64,000 nt of DNA from Henriciella sp. (GTDB taxonomy: Bacteria > Pseudomonadota > Alphaproteobacteria > Caulobacterales > Hyphomonadaceae), in NCBI GenBank assembly GCA_030066975.1, contig JASJAO010000007.1, forward strand, positions 1-64,000, given 5' to 3'. Shown here piece by piece: positions 3,203-48,528 of the stretch. Positions within the stretch are counted from its first letter, which is position 1, and each line of letters begins with the position of its first letter. Made by a program: the position numbers and the translations under genes. Under the pieces are notes generated by a model. It was not told the DNA's origin. It saw nothing but the letters and a program-made list of their open reading frames with translations, and searched no databases.

Positions 3203-4262
3203 CTTTTCCGGCGTTACATTGGCCTTCCCAAGAAAAGGGAAGGGGGATCCATACCATATCCTCAAAGAAGCCAATGCCAGTCTCAAAGTTGAAAAGGGCC
3301 AGGTTTTGGGTCTGCTCGGAGAGAGCGGTTCGGGAAAGAGCAGCCTGTTGAAGCTTTTAGCAGGAGAATTGTCATCCAATAAAGGCTCGCTGGAGCCTGA
3401 TGGTGTAAACGAACACGACATTATCCTCCTTCCTCAAGGCGGTGTTATCCTGGAACACCTTTCCATCCGGGAGAACCTTCAACTTTTTTCGAAACTGAGC
3501 GCCACAAAGTCCCGCTATAAAAAGGACAAACTCGACCGGGCCATCGAAATATTAGGGATCAGCGAAATTGAGCAAGACAAAGAAAAGCGAGTAGATCAGC
3601 TGAGCGGCGGGGAACGGCAACGCGTTTCTTTAGCGCGCGTCCTTTCTATTGATCCTAAGATCGTCTTGCTCGATGAGCCTTGTGCAGCCATCGGCGGTAT
3701 TCAACGTCAGCAATTTCTGACCTTACTCAAACGCTCATGCATCGAAGCAGGCTACGGCGCAATCATTGCCAGCCATGACTGGCGGGATCACCAGCTAGTC
3801 GCGAGCGACATTGTTTTTGTGCGCCAGACAAGGGGCGAGGGTCTATCCTCGCTCCAAGCAATGCCAATCTCCGAATTTGAGCTACGTCCGCAGCATATGG
3901 AGTCTATTCCATACACTACTTACGATCCGGTGAATTGGCTCCTCGCGCGACGGGCCAATGGTGATACGTTCGATGCGCTTCTGGGAGAGCAAAAGCTCTG
4001 CCAGATCACTTTGCCTGGTTTAGGGGGAGAAGACTTAGTCAGGGTTGCTTGCGGTCCGTTTGAGTACGGCAATACTAAAAACGTTGTTGATAACGACCGT
4101 CTTCTCCGGATCGGTCACTCAGGTTGTTATGAGTTTTTTCAGATCGAGCAGGAATTGGTGATCTGCAAACCATCCAGGGGACGCTCGACTAAAGAGCTTT
4201 CGCTACCTTCTGCTCTAACGGTGTTTTCTATCGAAGATGGGCGGATGCTTTCAAAGCTATAG
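3186..4262 (+). CDS. ABC transporter ATP-binding protein
   Basis: A 358-aa ATPase with Walker A GESGSGKSS at residues 45-53, a Q-loop at LLPQGG, signature LSGGERQRVSLARVL, Walker B IVLLDEP and a switch His in ASHDW. About 110 residues follow the ATPase core and may form a small regulatory domain as in the CUT1/FbpC group. The start at 3186 (MVAQFN) is inside the end of the permease gene, so the two are translationally coupled. It completes the importer operon 208-4262 and is convergent with epmA. Confidence 0.85.
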   Translation: MVAQFNFSGVTLAFPRKGKGDPYHILKEANASLKVEKGQVLGLLGESGSGKSSLLKLLAGELSSNKGSLEPDGVNEHDIILLPQGGVILEHLSIRENLQLFSKLSATKSRYKKDKLDRAIEILGISEIEQDKEKRVDQLSGGERQRVSLARVLSIDPKIVLLDEPCAAIGGIQRQQFLTLLKRSCIEAGYGAIIASHDWRDHQLVASDIVFVRQTRGEGLSSLQAMPISEFELRPQHMESIPYTTYDPVNWLLARRANGDTFDALLGEQKLCQITLPGLGGEDLVRVACGPFEYGNTKNVVDNDRLLRIGHSGCYEFFQIEQELVICKPSRGRSTKELSLPSALTVFSIEDGRMLSKL

Positions 4263-4298
4263 CAATTCAATATACATCGCCCATGAATTATTATTCTA

Positions 4299-5195
4299 TC
4301 AATTGCTCGCATGGATCGAAGTGTGTTTAAGCGCTCGTGCTATTAGTCGGTCAACTCCGATCGCTACCCCTGAGCAGACCGGAATGTCTCGCAATTTTGG
4401 TTTCGGTAGGCGATTCACTTTGAGCCGCTCGCGCTGATCGTTTTCCGCTTCAAACCGTAAGAGAAAATCACTCGCTTTTTCGATTTCCTGATATCCGTTC
4501 GCGATTTCAATCCCGTCGACATAAATTTCAAATCGCATAACCGTTCCATCATCACTTTGCTTAGCGAAGCAAGGATCTACAATCGGGTAGTCTAAGATGC
4601 AAAGCACCTTTTGTGCTGCGCGGCGCTCAATGGTGCTGTCCAACAAGTCGTCAAAGTGTTGACTTGGCAATACCTCCCCATCTCCAAGGTTACAACTTCC
4701 GAACGTCTTCTCATGAAGCAATCGAAGCTCCAAATCAGAAAGCTCGTGAAGCTCTACAGAAAATGCATCTTTGAACAGCTGCGCGCAGGTTATCGACTCC
4801 ACATCGAGATCATAAAGGTCTTTTAGAAAATGGCAGACTTCGGTCGCCATCTCCCGATATCCAAGTCCTGGGGCATACCATTCGAGGATACTGAATTCCG
4901 GTGAATGCGTTGCATCGGAAGGCTCATCTCGAAAAGCCTTACAAATCTGGTAGATAGCTCCAGATCCCTGTGAAATCAGAGACCGCATGGCTAGCTCTGG
5001 CGATGGTTGAAGGTACAGCGTGTCTTGTTTCGACTCCGATTGACTATGCGTCTCGAATAGCACAGTAGTGGGGTGCGCTAAAACAGCGTTATTTAGAATC
5101 GGGGTGCTTACCTCGACGGCGTCCATGTCGCGCATCCAGGTTCGAATCTGTGCTTTTAGGTGGGCTGTGAATTCCAAATCGACCCTTATATCCAA
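4299..5195 (-). CDS. epmA: EF-P lysine lysyltransferase EpmA (PoxA/GenX)
   Basis: A 298-aa paralogue of the lysyl-tRNA synthetase catalytic core without the anticodon-binding domain, as in EpmA. Class II motifs are visible: motif 2 as FRDEPSDATHSPEFSILEWY and motif 3 as GVAIGVDRLIARAL. Known EpmA enzymes activate (R)-beta-lysine and attach it to a lysine of elongation factor P, which helps ribosomes through polyproline stretches. The upstream gene on the other strand, epmB, makes the beta-lysine. No ATG is available: the annotated start is a TTG at 5195, and an ATT a few codons upstream is an alternative. The EF-P gene itself is not in this window. Confidence 0.88.
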   Translation of the reverse strand: MDIRVDLEFTAHLKAQIRTWMRDMDAVEVSTPILNNAVLAHPTTVLFETHSQSESKQDTLYLQPSPELAMRSLISQGSGAIYQICKAFRDEPSDATHSPEFSILEWYAPGLGYREMATEVCHFLKDLYDLDVESITCAQLFKDAFSVELHELSDLELRLLHEKTFGSCNLGDGEVLPSQHFDDLLDSTIERRAAQKVLCILDYPIVDPCFAKQSDDGTVMRFEIYVDGIEIANGYQEIEKASDFLLRFEAENDQRERLKVNRLPKPKLRDIPVCSGVAIGVDRLIARALKHTSIHASN

Positions 5196-6219
5196 TGATC
5201 GGTCTCCAATAAGCGGCTCAGAGGGTGCGGATTGGCAGATTGAGTACCGAAACGCAAATATTTCATTGTCCGAGCTACTCGAGCAGCTTGGTTTGTTGCC
5301 ATCAGATATCCCGTTTGAATTGGACCTGCAATCCGAGTTTCCACTAAAAGCACCTCCTCATTTTTTGTCTCTAATTCGTCCAGGCGACCCGTTAGATCCC
5401 CTTTTTCTCCAGATCGTCTCTCAAGCTGCCGAACGAATGGTTTCTGATGCGGCATCAGAAGACCCGCTTGAAGAAACTGACCGCTTTACCGATCAAGGAC
5501 TGATTAAAAAGTATGAGTATCGCGCTCTCATAGTCGCCACAGGAGTGTGTGCTTTGCATTGCCGATACTGTTTTCGACGCCATTATGACTACTCCGAAAA
5601 GGCCGCCAACGGCCAGGCGCTTGAGGATGCGCTTGATGCCATTGAAAAAAACCCGGCGCTCTCAGAGGTGATACTTAGTGGTGGTGATCCTCTTTCTTTA
5701 TCGGACGCCAAATTGAAAGCGTTGATATCCCGTTTGGAGGAGATGAACGAGATCAAAACAGTCAGGTTTCATACAAGAACGCTGACCGCAGTACCTTCGA
5801 GAGTAACTACGGATTTTCTGAACTTGATAGCGGAGACCTCCAAAAAGATCGTCATCGTGACTCACACCAATCACGCCAATGAATGGGACCCCATTACAAA
5901 ACACGCTATTGGACGCTTAAGAAAGGCTGGCGCGACGCTTATCAATCAATCCGTGTTGTTGGAAAGCGTGAACGACAATGCTAAAGCACTTTGTGATCTC
6001 AGCATTGCCATGTTCGATGCTGGCGTTCTCCCGTATTACATTCACTTGCTCGACCCCGTTGCGGGCGCCGAACACTTCCATGTCGGGTTAGATAGATCTC
6101 GTGCGCTCCGTCGAGAAATGATGCGGTCGCTTCCGGGGTATCTCGTTCCAAAGTTCGTTAAAGAAATTCCCGGCGAACAGAGCAAGGTTGATTTATTGGA
6201 CCTTCCGTTGTCGGATTAA
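5125..6219 (+). CDS. epmB: EF-P (R)-beta-lysylation protein EpmB, radical SAM lysine 2,3-aminomutase
   Basis: A radical SAM/PLP enzyme of about 340-364 aa with the [4Fe-4S] motif CALHCRYC followed by FRRH, the GGDPL segment, and the C-terminal LVPKFVKEIPGE region that carries the likely PLP lysine. EpmB converts lysine to (R)-beta-lysine for EpmA. It is divergent from epmA, and the two 5' ends overlap. Recognisable EpmB sequence begins around 5240 (DWQIEY). The nearest upstream in-frame ATG is at 5125, inside epmA on the opposite strand, so the true start is uncertain and may be a non-ATG codon between 5190 and 5266. Confidence 0.85.
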   Translation: MSRIQVRICAFRWAVNSKSTLISNDRSPISGSEGADWQIEYRNANISLSELLEQLGLLPSDIPFELDLQSEFPLKAPPHFLSLIRPGDPLDPLFLQIVSQAAERMVSDAASEDPLEETDRFTDQGLIKKYEYRALIVATGVCALHCRYCFRRHYDYSEKAANGQALEDALDAIEKNPALSEVILSGGDPLSLSDAKLKALISRLEEMNEIKTVRFHTRTLTAVPSRVTTDFLNLIAETSKKIVIVTHTNHANEWDPITKHAIGRLRKAGATLINQSVLLESVNDNAKALCDLSIAMFDAGVLPYYIHLLDPVAGAEHFHVGLDRSRALRREMMRSLPGYLVPKFVKEIPGEQSKVDLLDLPLSD

Positions 6220-7395: not shown

Positions 7396-7485
7396 TGGCG
7401 GAGAGGAAGGGATTCGAACCCTCGATACGCGTGAACGTATACGCCCTTAGCAGGGGCGCGCCTTCAGCCACTCGGCCACCTCTCC
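7396..7485 (-). tRNA. tRNA-Ser(GCT)
   Basis: A 90-nt class II tRNA on the minus strand. The acceptor stem is GGAGAGG/CCTCTCC, the anticodon loop CTGCTAA gives anticodon GCT, there is a long variable arm, the T loop is TTCGAAT and the 3' CCA is encoded. It reads codons AGC/AGU. Its 3' end faces the A+T-rich accessory segment at 1-7395, so it is a plausible integration site. Confidence 0.95.
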
Positions 7486-7636
7486 ACTCAGGCACTTGTC
7501 CCTAATCAACAACCACCGACAGGGCAACTGCATTTTGCGGTTATCTGGACCGATACTGTGCAGTCGCCCGTGCAAACCTCGGGGCAATCCAAAATTCTCA
7601 AGTTCGTGGAAAGATTGATGTGCTATGGAACACGTT

Positions 7637-8110
7637 ATGTCTGAGAACACTCCACCCAAGCTACGCCTTGATAACTATCTGCCCTACCGGCTTTCGGTGC
7701 TGTCGAATGCGGTTTCTCGGTTGATTGGGGGGGTGTATGAAGGGGACTTTGATCTGTCGATCTGGCAATGGCGGATTATTGCGGTCCTGGGGGAAACGCC
7801 TGGTCTGACCAGCACTGAAGTCACCCAGCGCACATTGATGGACAAGCCGACGGTTAGCCGCGCGGCGGCGAGCCTTGTCGAGCGCGGGCTGCTGCGCCGT
7901 GATGTCGACACAGAAGATCGCCGACGAGTGCCTCTGTCGCTCACTGATGCCGGGCAAGCCATCTACAATCAGGTTATTCCCGAAGCGATCGAGAAGGAAA
8001 AGGCTCTGCTCGATGTGCTGTCGGAGGACGAACAGTGCCAGTTGCACGATATTCTGACGCGACTGGCGCGCGTGGCCTCCCCCGGAACCAAGCTTTGGGA
8101 TGATTTTTAG
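7637..8110 (+). CDS. MarR-family transcriptional regulator
   Basis: A 157-aa winged-helix protein. The MarR core is visible: LSIWQWRIIAVLGETPGLT leading into the recognition region around TLMDKPTVSRAAASLVERG, followed by the DRRRVPLSLTDAG wing motif (D-x-R motif). Such proteins bind as dimers and usually repress nearby genes. Two starts are possible, ATG at 7625 and at 7637; the second gives the more usual N terminus. The next gene, 8187, is on the same strand and may be a target, but no ligand or operator can be inferred. Confidence 0.85.
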   Translation: MSENTPPKLRLDNYLPYRLSVLSNAVSRLIGGVYEGDFDLSIWQWRIIAVLGETPGLTSTEVTQRTLMDKPTVSRAAASLVERGLLRRDVDTEDRRRVPLSLTDAGQAIYNQVIPEAIEKEKALLDVLSEDEQCQLHDILTRLARVASPGTKLWDDF

Positions 8111-42088: not shown

Positions 42089-43102
42089 CTATCGAACCAC
42101 ACACACAGTGTGACTGCCGGCAGTCTCGAAAGAAATTCGACGCCCGGTGAATTTCGAAATGATTTCGGCATTTGTGGTGGCATGCAAACTCGGGCGCAGG
42201 GTCGAGAAAGTGCCACCCTTTGCTATAGCCATAGGCAATAGAAGCTGATCAGCAAGGTGATGATCTACAGCGGCACTGCTCGCTTCAAATGTTCTCATTT
42301 GCTTTGCGAGCCGTTTGGCAACTTGTTCTGCGCTCACACGCTTTTGGCCGAATTGGGCCATCAATACGGATCCGTGTTCATACTCCAGCCGTCCGAAAAG
42401 CGCATTGCCGGGGCCCCTTGAATCTGTCGAACGAAAACTGCAACCCGTTTCACAGTCGATCCCGAGAATCTTGGATGCAGTTTCCAGCTCACGCTTCGCG
42501 ATGTCGCCGGGGAGGTTGGAGATCAGTGCCTCGAGCGAACGCGAAACTTCATCGCCGCGTTCCAAGTGCTCGAAAGAACAGAGATCATTCGACGCGCCGA
42601 CTTTGGCGACAATCTCGCCCCCACCCGCCGGATAATATCCATATGCGTTCAGGTGACCATCCACTGCATAGCCGATCTTTCGAAGTGCTGGAAAAAAGCA
42701 CTCAGTCAAAAAATCGAAAGGGGGGGAACTTGGGTTATGCGTTCCGCCTTGGACGGTAACTTTGGAGGGTTGTCCGAGATGAAGGAGGACTGGAAGCACC
42801 GTTTGCAACACCAAATTTGCGCTGCCCGCCGACCCAACCGAGAACACGTAGTTTCCAGGCCGCACCGTGCCTGGACGAAGCATGATTTCAGAGCTGCCGA
42901 GTTCAGCACCAGATGCATGTCCGCCGCAAATTTCTGTCACGGCATTCAGTGCCGTCAAATGCTGTCGAAGCAAACCGGGCTTTGACCGATTTGCGCGAAC
43001 ATTTTCGATTCTTACCGGCTCACCAGTGATCGCGGACAAAGCAAGAGAAGAGCGGAGGATCTGTCCTCCGCCCTCCCCAAATGAACCATCAATCGTGATC
43101 AT
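42089..43102 (-). CDS. rtcA: RNA 3'-terminal phosphate cyclase
   Basis: A 337-aa RtcA. It starts MITIDGSFGEGGGQILRSSL, with RxxKPGL-type sequence after it (RANRSKPGLLRQHL), and the catalytic His is in the AVDHHLADQLLLPMA motif. RtcA converts RNA 3'-phosphate to 2',3'-cyclic phosphate with ATP. It is the last gene of the rsr-[RNA array]-rtcB-rtcA transcription unit, 75 bp after rtcB. Confidence 0.95.
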   Translation of the reverse strand: MITIDGSFGEGGGQILRSSLALSAITGEPVRIENVRANRSKPGLLRQHLTALNAVTEICGGHASGAELGSSEIMLRPGTVRPGNYVFSVGSAGSANLVLQTVLPVLLHLGQPSKVTVQGGTHNPSSPPFDFLTECFFPALRKIGYAVDGHLNAYGYYPAGGGEIVAKVGASNDLCSFEHLERGDEVSRSLEALISNLPGDIAKRELETASKILGIDCETGCSFRSTDSRGPGNALFGRLEYEHGSVLMAQFGQKRVSAEQVAKRLAKQMRTFEASSAAVDHHLADQLLLPMAIAKGGTFSTLRPSLHATTNAEIISKFTGRRISFETAGSHTVCVVR

Positions 43103-43177: not shown

Positions 43178-44401
43178 TCACCCTTTCACACACACGACCT
43201 GGCGGAGTATGTGGACAACCTCGACGAGATCTTTTTGTGCTTCCATGACCGCATCGATGTCTTTGTACGCGGCTGGCGTTTCATCCAGCACACCTTCATC
43301 AGTCCGGCACTCAACGTGGCTCACAGCCGCCAAATGCTCTTCCATTGAAACAGCCTTTTTTGCTGCTGTCCGAGACATGACCCGTCCAGCGCCATGGCTG
43401 CATGAGCAGAAGCTTTCGGCGTTGCCCAATCCGCGCACGATGTAAGACCGTGCGCCCATCGATCCAGGAATGATCCCCATTACCCCCAGAGCGGCGCGCA
43501 CGGCACCCTTCCGTGTTACGAAGATATTCTCTCCGAAGTGGTTTTCCCGCGTCACATAATTGTGGTGGCAGTTCACCGCTTCGGCTTCCGCATCGAATGG
43601 CATTGGCAGTTCTACCCGAAGAGCCGCGATGACGTTTGCCATCATCACCGTCCGGTTTGCCGCTGCAAAACTCTGAGCCCAATCAACCGCTTCAACATAG
43701 TCGTGAAAATGGTCTGTCCCTTCCGGGAAGTAGGCCAGGTTTTCATCAGGCAAATTGATGAACCATTTGCGCATGTCCTTTTTTGCAAGCTCGATGAAGT
43801 AAGAGCCGATCCGGTTGCCGACACCCCGCGAGCCGGAGTGCAACATAATCCAGACTTGATCGACTTCATCCAGGCAAATCTCAATGAAGTGGTTGCCTGT
43901 GCCAAGCGTGCCAAGATGCTTGTGGTTATTGGACCGCGCAATCGCCGGATGTTTGTCCGTAATCAGATCAAACTTCGGTTTCATTCCAACCCAGACGTCG
44001 TCCGCGGACTTTGGAGGGTTCTCCCACGAGCCTTTATCCCGACGTCCCCGACCAGATGTCCGCCCATGCGGTACAGCTTTCTCGATCGCAGACCGAATAG
44101 CCCCAAGAGAGTCTGGCAAATCGTTCGCTGTCAAAGACGTGCGCACCGCCATCATTCCGCAACCGATGTCTACCCCGACTGCGGCCGGGATGATCGCGTC
44201 CTTGGTTGGAATGACCGAGCCAACCGTAGAGCCAATACCGACATGAACGTCGGGCATCACTGCGAGATGCTTGAAAATGAAAGGCATTTGAGCGGTTTTG
44301 TTCAACTGCTCTCTCGCTTTGTCTTCAACAGGCACACCCCGAGTCCACATTTTTACGGGAGCACCGTGGTCAGATTCCATTACGTCAAAAGTGCGTTGCA
44401 T
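43178..44401 (-). CDS. rtcB: RNA-splicing ligase RtcB
   Basis: A 407-aa RtcB ligase. It shows GVDIGCGMMAVRT (Mn-binding Cys), GTGNHFIEI, MLHSGSRGVGN, and SCSHGAGRVMSR with the His that is guanylylated. RtcB joins RNA 2',3'-cyclic phosphate or 3'-phosphate ends to 5'-OH ends. ATG 44401 is preferred to 44407 because AGGAG lies eight bases upstream of it and only two from the first ATG. The 5' leader carries the last tRNA-like unit, whose stem ends 33 bp before the start codon. Confidence 0.95.
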   Translation of the reverse strand: MQRTFDVMESDHGAPVKMWTRGVPVEDKAREQLNKTAQMPFIFKHLAVMPDVHVGIGSTVGSVIPTKDAIIPAAVGVDIGCGMMAVRTSLTANDLPDSLGAIRSAIEKAVPHGRTSGRGRRDKGSWENPPKSADDVWVGMKPKFDLITDKHPAIARSNNHKHLGTLGTGNHFIEICLDEVDQVWIMLHSGSRGVGNRIGSYFIELAKKDMRKWFINLPDENLAYFPEGTDHFHDYVEAVDWAQSFAAANRTVMMANVIAALRVELPMPFDAEAEAVNCHHNYVTRENHFGENIFVTRKGAVRAALGVMGIIPGSMGARSYIVRGLGNAESFCSCSHGAGRVMSRTAAKKAVSMEEHLAAVSHVECRTDEGVLDETPAAYKDIDAVMEAQKDLVEVVHILRQVVCVKG

Positions 44402-44433
44402 CGTCATTCTCCTATCAGAGCGTGGTCTTCAAA

Positions 44434-44562
44434 CGGCGACAAGGGGGTGATGAGACATTGCCTGATGCTCTACCTGGCTGAGCTACAGCGCTATGAGTGC
44501 GCTGGCGGGATTTGAACCCGCGACCTTCAGATTCGGAATGTAGTCCCATCGGCATTCGCCAA
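44434..44562 (-). ncRNA. Y-RNA-like unit 4 with permuted tRNA-Arg(CCG)-like module
   Basis: In transcript order: the stem strand GGCGAATGCCGATGGGACTA (44560 down), then a tRNA 3' half (44538-44498) with loop TTCCGAA, stem TCTGA, T-arm GCGGG-TTCAAAT-CCCGC and acceptor CAGCGCA. A five-base linker CTCAT follows, then a tRNA 5' half (44492-44461) with acceptor AGCGCTG, TA, D-arm GCTC/GAGC and anticodon stem TCAGG. The transcript closes with TTGTCGCC, whose TCGCC pairs with the first GGCGA. Six of seven acceptor pairs and all five anticodon-stem pairs (one G-U) form. The loop gives anticodon CCG. Confidence 0.75.
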
Positions 44563-44573
44563 TGAATATGAAC

Positions 44574-44723
44574 GGCGACTAGCAATTGGTCAGATGTGAA
44601 TTTTCCGCCACTCTTCCTTATTCAGGAGAGGCTGGTTTCGAACCAGCACGGAGAGGCTTGCGCCGACCTCCACCCGAAACTTAAACGGGCGCGTCTACCA
44701 TGTAATCCGACCGGCATTCGCCT
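44574..44723 (-). ncRNA. Y-RNA-like unit 3 with permuted class II tRNA-Leu-like module
   Basis: The stem strand AGGCGAATGCC starts at 44723 and its partner TCGCC is at 44578-44574. Between them, TGGTAGACGCG (the 3' part of a Leu D-arm) is followed by an anticodon arm with loop TTAAGTT (AAG, or TAA if the loop is read one base earlier), a long class II variable arm, the T-arm GCTGG-TTCGAAA-CCAGC and acceptor CTCTCCT (44630-44624). A five-base linker GAATA leads to acceptor AGGAAGAG (44618-44611, one extra A), TG and GCGG of the D-stem. So the tRNA is opened in the D-loop rather than in the anticodon loop. Confidence 0.7.
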
Positions 44724-44730
44724 GATCTTA

Positions 44731-44826
44731 GGCGGAGGACAAGTGGGTTGCGACACGCGCTGGATTTGAACCAGCCTTCAGTCCGTAGACCTTCAACCAA
44801 ATGTAGTGCCGCAGGCATTCCTCCTT
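44731..44826 (-). ncRNA. Y-RNA-like unit 2 with reduced tRNA-like module
   Basis: The 5' strand GGAGGAATGCC and CACTACAT match the other units except at the stem, where GGAGGA replaces GGCGA. The 3' strand at 44739-44734 is TCCTCC instead of TCGCC, so pairing is kept (a compensatory change). Inside, GGTTG (44798-44794) pairs with CAACC (44750-44746) and encloses a T-arm GCTGG-TTCAAAT-CCAGC. A CTACGGA string resembles a tRNA-Arg(ACG) anticodon loop, but no 5' tRNA half is present. It may be a shortened or decayed unit. Confidence 0.6.
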
Positions 44827-44867
44827 TTGCTCTTTCCTTTCTTTCTTGCGCTTGCGCGCGTTGAATT

Positions 44868-44945
44868 TGGTCAGAGTGGCTGGACTTGAACCAACGACCC
44901 CCGGCTTCCAAAGCCGGTGCTCTACACAGACTGAGCTACACTCTG
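44868..44945 (-). tRNA. tRNA-Pro(TGG)-like gene inside the RNA array
   Basis: A 78-nt canonical cloverleaf in normal order. Acceptor CAGAGTG/CACTCTG pairs fully, the D-arm is GCTC/GAGC, the anticodon stem CCGGC/GCCGG encloses TTTGGAA (anticodon TGG), the T-arm is GTTGG-TTCAAGT-CCAGC, and A73 plus CCA are encoded. C1-G72 and A73 agree with bacterial tRNA-Pro. It begins three bases after the outer helix of unit 1. Whether it is a working tRNA or a decoy substrate of the repair system is unknown. Confidence 0.85.
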
Positions 44946-44948
44946 TTT

Positions 44949-45115
44949 CCATCTGGAATGAAGACTGGCGACCAGTGTTCGGCGAAACGTCTCCTGCTCT
45001 ATCCGGTTGAGCTACAGGCCCGCATTTGGTGGACCCGACGGGACTCGAACCCGCAACCTGGCGATTAACGATCGATGTAGTTCCACCAGCATTCGCCAGC
45101 CTACATTCCAGATGG
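44949..45115 (-). ncRNA. Y-RNA-like unit 1 with permuted tRNA-Asn(GTT)-like module and a long terminal stem
   Basis: The outer helix CCATCTGGAATG (45115-45104) pairs perfectly with CATTCCAGATGG (44960-44949). The inner helix GGCTGGCGA (45101-45093) pairs with TCGCCAGTC (44971-44963). Inside are a tRNA 3' half (loop TCGTTAA, T-arm GCGGG-TTCGAGT-CCCGT, acceptor CGGGTCC, ACCA) and, after AATGC, a 5' half (acceptor GGGCCTG, TA, D-arm GCTC/GAGC, GGAGA). All seven acceptor pairs form (two G-U); the anticodon stem has one mismatch, and position 33 is C instead of T. The start GGCTGG and the following bases resemble the Ro-binding strand of animal Y RNAs. Confidence 0.7.
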
Positions 45116-46777: not shown

Positions 46778-46794
46778 TACAAGAGGCGTGCCAA
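46778..46794 (-). promoter_or_regulatory. Sigma54 promoter of the rsr-rtcBA operon
   Basis: On the minus strand TTGGCACGCCTCTTGTA matches the -24/-12 pattern TGGCACG-N4-TTGC with one difference (TTGT). It lies 38 bp before the rsr ATG and faces rsr. The divergent gene encodes RtcR, the sigma54 activator that controls such operons. Confidence 0.8.
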
Positions 46795-46941: not shown

Positions 46942-48528
46942 ATGAGAACCGTCGCATTAAGTTTCCTGGGCACTCAAATCGATGCCGGCAAAGGACCAGA
47001 TAGGTGGAATCGGTGGCGTCCTAGCGTTGCGCTTTGCCAACAGGAAGACTTGGTGATTGACCGATTCGACCTGATCCACGACCGGCGTCACACGAAATTG
47101 GCTGAACTGATTGAGGAGGACGTTCGAGGCGTCTCGACTGAGACGGAGGTGGTTCACCACATCATCGACTTTGATAATCCCTGGGATTTTCAGGAAGTGT
47201 ACAGCGCGATGCGCGACTTTGCTGATGCGTACACATTCAAACCCGATGAAGAGACGTATCTCGCCAATCTCACAACTGGCACGCATGTCGCGCAGATCTG
47301 TTGGTTTCTTCTGACGGAAGCTCGATACATACCCGGTCAATTAATCCAACTTTCGCCACCACGCGGGCGATCGGGAGATCTTAAAGGCCAATATCAGATT
47401 ATAGACCTCGATCTCTCAAAGTATGACGAGATCGCTAGCCGCTTCGCGGAAGAGCGTGTTGAAGGCACCAATTTCCTGAAATCGGGGATCGTTACAAAAA
47501 ACGAGACCTTCAACACGATGATCGATCAAATCGAGAAAGTGGTCATTCGATCTCAAGCGCCAGTTCTGCTGCTTGGCCCGACCGGAGCCGGTAAGTCTCG
47601 GCTCGCAGAACGCATCTACGAGCTAAAGAGAACCCGGCATCAAATTGAAGGTGACTTTATCGAAGTAAATTGCGCCACGCTTCGAGGTGACAATGCGATG
47701 TCTGCCTTATTCGGGCACAAACGCGGCGCATTCACAGGCGCCATTGCTGAACGAAAAGGCCTCCTGCGTGCCGCCGATAAAGGACTGCTTTTCCTTGATG
47801 AAATCGGAGAGTTGGGGCTCGACGAGCAAGCAACAATTCTGCGCGCCATTGAGGACAAGCGGTTTCTGCCTGTCGGATCAGATAAAGAAGTCTCTAGCGA
47901 TTTCCAACTCATCGCCGGCACCAATCGAGATCTGCGCAAAGCCGTTCGAAATGGTGAGTTTCGCGAAGACCTTCTCGCGCGCCTCGATTTGTGGACGTAC
48001 GAGATGCCAGGCCTGAAAGATCGACGAGAGGACATCGCGCCGAACATAGAGTTTGAACTAACGAAGTACGCACGAGAAACGGGGAACAAAATGAACTTCA
48101 ATCAAGCTGCACTGCGAAAATACTTGAAGTTTGCGAACAGCCCGGAAGCGATTTGGAGCGGTAACTTTCGAGACTTAGGGGCGTCGATTATGAGAATGGC
48201 GACACTCGCGGATAGCGGGCGGATCTCAGATGATATCGTTGAGATTGAGGTTTCGCGATTACGCTCCGCCTGGATCGGTGTTGATCCGGCTTTTTCTCGA
48301 CTAGAATCGATCCTCGGACCGAAACGGTCGAGCGAGATTGATCCGTTCGACAAGCCGCAACTCGAGCTAGTACTAAATGTATGCTCAAAACACAGCAGTA
48401 TGAGTGCAGCGGGCCGCGAACTGTTTGCAGTTTCTCGGTTAGCTAAATCGTCGTCCAACGATTCAGATCGTTTGAAAAAGTACCTCTCAAAATGGGGATT
48501 AAGTTGGGCGGATGTTCAGCAAGCCTAA
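46942..48528 (+). CDS. rtcR: RtcR, sigma54-dependent activator of the RNA-repair operon
   Basis: A 528-aa activator. Residues 1-185 form the RtcR/CARF-type sensor domain; known RtcR proteins sense RNA fragments with 2',3'-cyclic phosphate ends or related nucleotides. The AAA+ domain has Walker A GPTGAGKS (about residue 212), the sigma54-contacting loop GAFTGA (about 261) and Walker B LLFLDEIGE. The C terminus has a Fis-like helix-turn-helix (SSMSAAGRELFAVSRLAK). It is divergent from rsr and activates the promoter at 46778. Confidence 0.95.
   Translation: MRTVALSFLGTQIDAGKGPDRWNRWRPSVALCQQEDLVIDRFDLIHDRRHTKLAELIEEDVRGVSTETEVVHHIIDFDNPWDFQEVYSAMRDFADAYTFKPDEETYLANLTTGTHVAQICWFLLTEARYIPGQLIQLSPPRGRSGDLKGQYQIIDLDLSKYDEIASRFAEERVEGTNFLKSGIVTKNETFNTMIDQIEKVVIRSQAPVLLLGPTGAGKSRLAERIYELKRTRHQIEGDFIEVNCATLRGDNAMSALFGHKRGAFTGAIAERKGLLRAADKGLLFLDEIGELGLDEQATILRAIEDKRFLPVGSDKEVSSDFQLIAGTNRDLRKAVRNGEFREDLLARLDLWTYEMPGLKDRREDIAPNIEFELTKYARETGNKMNFNQAALRKYLKFANSPEAIWSGNFRDLGASIMRMATLADSGRISDDIVEIEVSRLRSAWIGVDPAFSRLESILGPKRSSEIDPFDKPQLELVLNVCSKHSSMSAAGRELFAVSRLAKSSSNDSDRLKKYLSKWGLSWADVQQA

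Follow-up and report, generated by a model that had tools for sequence, protein, structure and literature searches.

What would a bacterium gain from keeping several tRNA look-alikes, together with an intact tRNA gene, inside an operon for RNA repair? The question is raised by a stretch of 64,000 nt from Henriciella sp. (contig JASJAO010000007.1, positions 1-64,000; hereafter the window, with its host genome labelled G000), in which four Y-RNA-like units and a tRNA-Pro gene lie on the minus strand between rsr, encoding the bacterial Ro60 orthologue, and rtcB, encoding an RNA ligase. We found that one Y stem is used four times in this array, where it closes two anticodon-open heads, one head consisting of a T-arm only and one type II head that is open in the D loop. 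Weighing the evidence below, we lean somewhat more for than against the view that the locus is an expanded rsr-Y RNA-rtcBA repair operon, which under the control of RtcR would supply spare tRNAs as well as Rsr and a range of differently shaped tRNA mimics that dock on it.

The four units are united by their stem. On its 5′ side, a lower stem ending in GA is followed by ATGC plus one base, by a 7-pair upper stem and then by either CTACA or TTACA. This order is mirrored on the 3′ side, which ends in TC plus the complement. The upper stem is paired at 7/7 positions in all four units, and the lower stem at 7, 6, 5 and 6 of 7 positions in units 1, 2, 3 and 4, respectively. An initial annotation had placed four minus-strand Y-RNA-like units and a tRNA-Pro between rsr and rtcB, which was confirmed by the stem pairing, by Rfam and by a covariance model (R1) described below. 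Its shared 5′ consensus was true in part, as the strict form (GGCGAATGCYGRTGG followed by ACTACAT) fits units 1 and 4, but units 2 and 3 deviate from it (GGAGGAATGCCTGCGGCACTACAT and GGCGAATGCCGGTCGGATTACAT, respectively). The same division applies to the tRNA arms that it had described between the stems: the order T-arm, acceptor and D-arm is present inside the Y stem of units 1 and 4 but is absent from unit 2, which has a T-arm only, and from unit 3, which holds a whole D-loop-open type II body. Its wider proposal, a set of different tRNA-mimicking Y RNAs beside rsr, is supported.

Scored with the Rfam YrlA model (RF02553, gathering threshold 69 bits), units 1 and 4 passed and units 2 and 3 failed, so the latter two were not filed as YrlA. 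All four units nevertheless have what broadly defines a bacterial Y RNA, namely a long stem joining the ends, a conserved AATGC...CTACA strand and a place beside rsr. Unit 1 aligns with L040, the tRNA-Met(cat) gene of the host, but with the parts permuted: T-arm, acceptor, CCA and spacer come first, followed by acceptor again and then the D-arm. Its Y stem takes the place of the anticodon arm. Unit 4 aligns with a tRNA-Thr gene. Two other identities were ruled out: unit 2 is not a tRNA in normal order, because what had been taken for an acceptor stem is the upper stem of the Y structure, and the units are not tmRNAs, as short matches to tmRNA models all remained below threshold. Folding energy (z of -0.41, -1.45, -2.58 and -1.04 for units 1 to 4) is weak support for the units and, in the case of unit 1, partly counts against them.

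In the minimum-energy fold of unit 3, the Y stem encloses a D-stem, a hairpin that resembles an anticodon arm, a long variable arm, a T-arm and a hairpin that resembles an acceptor, and the unit is therefore modelled as a type II tRNA body opened in the D loop. We aligned 16 Leu-type D-loop-open (D-open) members, L026 and L131+103 being left out of the 18 rows as other types; in this alignment (A1), the 3′ arm of L139 was wrongly cut. The test covered 20 pairs, all of them in the upper stem, the D-stem, the T-arm or the acceptor; 98.8% of the cells are paired, and sliding the partners reduced pairing to at most 43.3%. Both sides have changed in 13/20 pairs, and covariation amounts to 0.600 vs 0.153 in shuffled alignments, with the reservation that three D-stem pairs are invariant and hence uninformative and that the structure was derived partly from the very sequences used in the test. 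In the computed folds, the loop of the anticodon arm is not 7 bases long in 15/16 Leu-type members, the fold of L082 being ambiguous. A tetraloop of the GNRA or UUCG kind closes the acceptor hairpin in 15/16 Leu-type members, the exception being unit 3 of the window, and a GNRA loop does so in 6/9 type I D-open members.

The covariance model R1 was trained on unit 3 and 15 relatives, with units 1, 2 and 4 outside the training set. In the 64-kb window it matched exactly four places at E<=0.1, and these are the four units (91.4, 30.5, 30.2 and 20.2 bits). D-open units outside the training set scored 121 bits (L141, a close kin of a training row), 83 bits (L184), 70 bits (L143) and 68 bits (L186, a locus from another bacterial class). 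The D-open class recurs in Rhizobium, in Novosphingobium and in L186. When 170 genomes of relatives were searched under stricter filters, scores above 40 bits were obtained only in the window and in G053. Six weaker matches lay in genomes other than G000, G050 and G053, and the four that were fetched (L201-L204, 30-36 bits) are tRNA-Leu genes, which supports mimicry of tRNA-Leu.

The units are widely conserved. Rsr relatives were found in 7/385 genomes of the class, 8/398 of the order, 9/137 of one family, 23/390 of the order of G350 and 10/349 of the phylum (the host genome being counted wherever it was drawn), and six loci came from a collection of genome contigs. Our first survey covered 46 loci (the window, L024-L029, L065, L066, L081-L091, L096-L099 and L122-L143), comprising every hit of these searches apart from the phylum one; the loci share genera and so are not independent. 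Y-type units are present in 46/46 of them, at 2-8 per locus and 207 in total, without counting 10 five-prime arms that lack a good 3′ arm, some of which are probably real; absence from related rsr-rtcB intervals, which would have counted against the initial annotation, was not observed. Additionally, 13/13 further bacterial loci carry 2-7 units, those of Pseudomonas (L192) being weak. Six of the further loci came from the phylum search, and the other seven were taken from 62 plasmid records that matched Rsr (Rhizobium, Shinella, Methylosinus, two Novosphingobium, Xanthomonas and Pseudomonas).

The arms of a unit fit each other. For 157 distinct arm sets from the 207 units of the 46 loci, a unit's own arms pair at 4.61/5 positions in the outer lower stem and 6.77/7 in the upper stem, vs 3.04 and 5.05 after arms have been swapped among units, a comparison in which unit detection itself had used pairing. 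A control free of pairing, in which the 3′ arm was anchored on a literal motif (found in 148/173 arms), gave 4.27/5 for the lower stem over 63 distinct arm pairs, vs 2.87 when shuffled (sd 0.12; maximum of 3.22 in 1000 shuffles). Chance as the source of the units is ruled out by these shuffles and by the conservation in 46/46 loci. A phage origin was also considered and rejected: no IMG/VR stretch matched six peptide patterns of one protein, a search sensitive to close relatives only. A phage collection gave 189 matching records; among the 15 matches listed, the best full-length one is Myxococcus phage Mx1 (45.1% identity), two short unannotated records reach 52.5 and 53.7%, and the others range from 23.5 to 25.9%. 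The Mx1 region (L176) holds one weak unit and a tRNA-Gly.

The heads fall into recurrent classes, and the arrays differ between loci in the number and order of their units. A regular-expression rule assigned 73 units to class A (anticodon-open, YrlA-like), 29 to class B (D-loop-open), 46 to class C (a T-arm, but neither of the patterns that define A and B), 57 to class D (stem-only) and two to none (X). These tallies are approximate, as L143+485 was labelled C yet scores 70 bits with R1, L086+17 was labelled A yet looks D-open, and 6/57 stem-only units show a T-arm-like motif. In the 68 class A acceptor loops that could be parsed, CCA is kept in 18, unit 1 included, and a GNRA or UUCG seal is present in 6; therefore, sealing by a tetraloop characterizes class B and not class A. 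As a separate observation, 16 class C units share a conserved fold, in which a T-arm-like hairpin is joined by further hairpins around a motif like CCCAGACGGCAAAC and no tRNA order was matched; one such unit occurs in each of L082, L096, L122-L126, L128, L131, L132, L135-L138, L140 and L141.

Intact tRNA genes are the second component of these arrays. ARAGORN placed tRNA genes inside the interval in 30/46 first-survey loci, one to twelve in each, compared with 0.63 loci expected from the tRNA density of the host (40 in 3.57 Mb), and they occur in most arrays of two groups of bacteria. After two of 74 calls had been dropped as lying inside Y units, 72 remained: Asn 17, Gln 17, Pro 14, His 4, Lys 4, Tyr 4, Leu 4, Arg 3 and five single ones. 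The anticodon loops of the operon Asn, Lys, Tyr and most Gln genes look normal when set beside the host genome's own. The tRNA-Gln(UUG) at L028:5541-5616 and the tRNA-Asn(GUU) at L029:2127-2202 differ at 6/76 positions, all within 34-44, and apparently represent one tRNA body with a switched anticodon. Several single loci deserve mention in their own right. L091 carries twelve tRNA genes and a Tpt1/KptA gene (PF01885; 5103-5660) between rsr and rtcB (3510-5706), a DUF4291 gene (7406-7987) between rtcB and rtcA, and an operon tRNA-Glu with T at position 37 beside its UUC anticodon. In L066, two normal-order tRNA-like genes with unusual anticodon loops (4944-5094) stand beside the operon tRNA-Pro.

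The tRNA-Pro genes of the arrays have an unusual base next to the anticodon. The tRNA-Pro(UGG) of the window has a cloverleaf, a C1-G72 pair, A73 and an encoded CCA, but it has A37 instead of G37, and its D loop lacks GG. A37 together with C1, G72, A73 and CCA was found in 14/14 operon tRNA-Pro genes (11 UGG and 3 CGG), vs G37 in 29/29 tRNA-Pro genes from the same 14 genomes, a control that describes housekeeping-like genes only, as it was made with a G37 gene as the query and missed L060. That gene is an orphan A37 tRNA-Pro(UGG) at G000:C13:213020-213097 (L174:7021-7098), between genes that by eye resemble trkH and proA. It came to light in a reading of all 40 host tRNAs, among which the tRNA-Pro genes other than that of the operon number three, two with G37 and this one with A37; no Pro(CGG) gene is present among the 40. 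A search for L060 in 28 other genomes of the genus gave matches in two, both normal Pro(CGG) genes with G37. With the operon tRNA-Pro as the query against the 14 genomes (25 matches), no further A37 tRNA-Pro was found outside operons, in a search that, like the one with the G37 query, was not exhaustive and that missed the diverged operon tRNA-Pro of eight genomes. All its Pro matches have A37 (the operon genes of G000, G050, G053 and G571 and the orphan L060), and the remaining ones are tRNA-Thr or Asp genes or short matches that fall within or next to the clusters of operon tRNAs in G801 and G522. A similar change affects tRNA-Leu(UAG), whose operon copies have A37 in 3/3 cases and no long variable arm, whereas the host's own tRNA-Leu(UAG) has G37 and the arm; all four operon tRNA-Leu genes (UAG and UAA; L091, L097 and L098) are of a 77-base type I form.

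The N1-methylated guanosine at position 37 (m1G37) is required for efficient charging and frame keeping of tRNA-Pro, as reported in PMC8643618. Therefore, A37 may free the operon tRNA of this need, may alter a nuclease site or may mark a disused tRNA. Judged by sequence, the retained identity bases would favour the operon tRNA-Pro being in use.

The genes around the array agree with a repair function (Table 1). With RtcR, RtcB and RtcA encoded in order, the locus has the gene content of an RtcR-regulated RNA repair operon, and the repair-operon frame of the initial annotation is borne out by the domain matches of RtcR (PF06956), Rsr (PF25045), RtcB (PF01139) and RtcA (PF01137). The rsr product scores above the cut-off for vWA_Ro60 and below it for TROVE (PF05731, 20.8 bits; cut-off 23), and it matches Rsr (2nvo) across residues 14-502 (phmmer, E 4.3e-13). 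Divergence of rtcR from rsr holds in 45/45 surveyed loci whose contig reaches rtcR, and an rtcB-like gene lies downstream in 42/46, up to about 3.3 kb away. As for the proposal that sigma54 drives the operon, a sigma54-like site, recognized by its match to the consensus (TGGCACG-N4-TTGTA), has its 3′ end 37 bases upstream of rsr in the window; among the 45 loci examined such a site was found in only three others (L024, L065 and L066), each with 11/12 specified bases as in the window.

Table 1. Features of the rsr-rtcBA locus in the window
Feature	Position	Strand	Basis or remark
rtcR, sigma54 activator	46942..48528	+	PF06956 263 bits, PF00158 167.7 bits; divergent from rsr
Sigma54-like promoter TGGCACGCCTCTTGTA	46778..46793	-	11/12 specified consensus bases; consensus match only
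rsr, bacterial Ro60 orthologue, 517 aa	45187..46740	-	vWA_Ro60 PF25045 56.4 bits
Array of Y-RNA-like units and tRNA-Pro	44433..45099	-	
Unit 1, YrlA-type Y RNA	44965..45099	-	RF02553 71.7 bits; T-arm, acceptor with CCA in loop, D-arm
tRNA-Pro(UGG)	44868..44945	-	ARAGORN; RF00005 66.1 bits
Unit 2, reduced Y RNA (Y stem and T-arm hairpin)	44733..44825	-	R1 30.5 bits; RF02553 25.3 bits, below gathering
Unit 3, D-loop-open type II (tRNA-Leu-like) Y RNA	44572..44724	-	Covariation on 16 sequences; RF02553 17.5 bits, below gathering
Unit 3, D-loop and D-stem 3′ half (GGTAGACGC)	44691..44699	-	
Unit 3, anticodon-arm-like hairpin, 9-base loop	44673..44689	-	
Unit 3, T-arm	44631..44647	-	
Unit 3, acceptor-like hairpin	44611..44630	-	
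Unit 3, D-arm 5′ half (TGGCGGAA)	44603..44610	-	
Unit 4, YrlA-type Y RNA	44433..44562	-	RF02553 70.6 bits; fold
rtcB, RNA ligase	43178..44407	-	PF01139 435.6 bits
rtcA, RNA 3′-terminal phosphate cyclase	42089..43102	-	PF01137 255.5 bits

Overall, we provide a putative mechanism for the expanded operon, in which the transcription, processing, Rsr binding and effect of the array are what we infer. When tRNAs are cut, RtcR would turn the operon on, as it does for the rsr-yrlBA-rtcBA operon of Salmonella, where the reported signal is RNA with a 2′,3′-cyclic phosphate (PMC9879122, PMC7790460). The array transcript would be cut into separate RNAs, and each Y stem would dock on Rsr. The head would then show a tRNA-shaped surface (type I, type II or the T-arm alone) and recruit or block proteins that read the tRNA elbow; in the available account of YrlA, the stem tethers Rsr, while DusA and TruB use the head as a substrate and PNPase is bound by it (PMC8394870). 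The single ring protein Rsr might thereby gain several interchangeable adaptors, while RtcB and RtcA would religate broken tRNAs and the embedded tRNA genes would replenish lost tRNA species. A37 in the operon tRNA-Pro could release that tRNA from dependence on m1G37 or change the nuclease site of its anticodon loop.

Several observations weigh against this mechanism. No sigma54-like site was found in the other 41/45 loci examined, whose best scores were 6-10/12. The minimum-energy fold of unit 1 differs from the YrlA shape, and the computed folds of four of the 16 Leu-type D-open members (L134, L135, L138 and L140) lack a full Y stem. Embedded tRNA genes are absent from 16/46 first-survey loci and from 13/13 further loci; therefore, spare tRNAs are no general part of the operon. 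The host genome has an A37 tRNA-Pro outside the operon (L060), and it is doubtful that the 77-base type I operon tRNA-Leu are substrates of LeuRS. Finally, E. coli tRNA-Pro without m1G37 is charged less well, according to PMC8643618, so A37 could be a defect.

The main rival, which we regard as unlikely, has the mimics competitively inhibit anticodon nucleases or further enzymes that attack tRNA, with the heads blocking shape-reading nucleases and the real tRNAs serving as sacrificial targets. Most of the embedded tRNAs (60/72) are specific for Asn, Gln, Pro, Lys, His or Tyr, and several of these species are classic targets of anticodon nucleases. The predominance of anticodon-arm loops of other than 7 bases in the computed folds of Leu-type D-open heads (15/16) also speaks for inhibition, which was proposed for YrlA by Hughes et al. 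(PMC7790460). However, heads that have no anticodon loop could block only nucleases that bind the tRNA body, and most embedded tRNAs retain CCA, with those for Pro, Asn and Gln retaining the identity bases of their ends as well, which a decoy would not need.

Two further explanations are less probable again. In the first, which seems quite improbable to us, the units are redundant YrlA copies that arose by tandem duplication and drift, and copy number alone matters. The variation of unit number and order among arrays suits this idea, but the head classes recur across orders, and the D-open class covaries and is found in Rhizobium, Novosphingobium and L186, the locus from another bacterial class. 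The second, to which we give slightly less credence still, treats the tRNA-like parts and the tRNA as processing signals (tRNA punctuation), at which RNase P and RNase Z would split the transcript into rsr and rtcBA messages. Intact tRNAs do stand between the genes, and CCA is found at the acceptor loop in 18/68 parsed class A units, unit 1 among them, but the 57 units labelled stem-only (6 of them with a T-arm-like motif) and the tetraloop-sealed acceptors of 15/16 Leu-type D-open members weigh against the idea, and the Y stem covaries for its own sake. That the locus is a hot spot gathering tRNA debris is highly improbable, since the odd character of some embedded tRNAs, such as the two tRNA-like genes of L066, is outweighed by compensatory changes, invariant D-stem and T-arm positions and units in 46/46 loci, and covariation argues against it as a complete account.

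The initial annotation had offered substrate, decoy and sensor of tRNA damage as possible roles of the mimics. The sensor role appears the least supported, because the signal for RtcR in Salmonella is, in the account of PMC9879122, RNA with a 2′,3′-cyclic phosphate. A role as a repair substrate also seems unlikely, because no normal anticodon loop is present in the relatives of unit 3 and because, in the available part of PMC7790460, fragments of Salmonella YrlA were not seen upon tRNA cutting.

Among known systems, the Salmonella rsr-yrlBA-rtcBA operon shares with the window its gene order, the divergent RtcR, a sigma54-type site and Y RNAs between rsr and rtcB (as described in PMC9879122, PMC7790460 and PMC8394870), and Salmonella YrlA has the T-arm, acceptor and D-arm head of units 1 and 4. 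In contrast, the window has four units rather than two, unit 3 is D-loop-open with anticodon-like and variable arms, and an intact tRNA-Pro lies in the array. The Rsr-Y RNA-PNPase machine (RYPER) likewise uses a Y RNA as an adaptor, with the stem on Rsr and the head on PNPase in the working model of PMC8394870, but the available text of that paper describes neither tRNA genes nor D-open heads. An inducible tRNA operon of Anabaena (the TrcR regulon) offers stress-inducible extra tRNAs and a regulator in common with rtcB; unlike in the window, that tRNA operon and rtcB are on separate replicons under another regulator, and the accessible part of PMC10272220 mentions no Rsr or Y RNA. Phage tRNAs are comparable as spare tRNAs with altered anticodon loops (according to PMC10264068), whereas the spare tRNA of the window lies in a bacterial repair operon, and the operon Asn, Lys, Tyr and most Gln loops look normal beside those of the host. 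Circularly permuted tRNA genes (compare PMC3978253) have a permuted order of tRNA parts as well, but unit 3 is closed by a Y stem and has a 9-base loop where a 7-base anticodon loop would be expected of such a gene, and its class has a sealed acceptor.

Y RNAs, their mimicry of tRNA and the presence of more than one Y RNA at an rsr locus are already known. The 2014 work of Chen reportedly recorded Y RNAs in the vicinity of Ro60 in more than 250 species, each of which had one or more that resemble tRNA, so that rsr loci with multiple Y RNAs were no novelty. Among the titles and abstract openings listed in literature searches, which did not cover the founding Y-RNA papers, none reported a type II head opened in the D loop, tRNA genes between rsr and rtcB, or A37 in such genes. 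The head of unit 3, the operon tRNAs and A37 would thus be new variants within a known family.

Extending the view of an expanded repair operon beyond Henriciella, we tentatively entertain a broader possibility, which we hold with clearly less confidence than the reading of the window itself. Many repair operons of Proteobacteria may encode an RNA kit of Rsr-docked mimics of both tRNA types without a normal anticodon loop. In two groups the kit may also include spare tRNAs whose G37-dependent members (Pro and Leu-UAG) have been changed to A37 and which would work or survive when their normal counterparts have been cut or lack modification. In that case, the Y stem would be a general plug for swapped tRNA-shaped heads.

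A single stem that carries type I, type II and T-arm-only heads or none at all offers direct tests of what bacterial Y RNAs do and of why they imitate tRNA. The series of heads could reveal which part of tRNA the Rsr machine needs, and the spare tRNAs of the same operon could reveal whether replacement is part of RNA repair. The A37 tRNA-Pro genes, in turn, provide a natural test of the need for m1G37.

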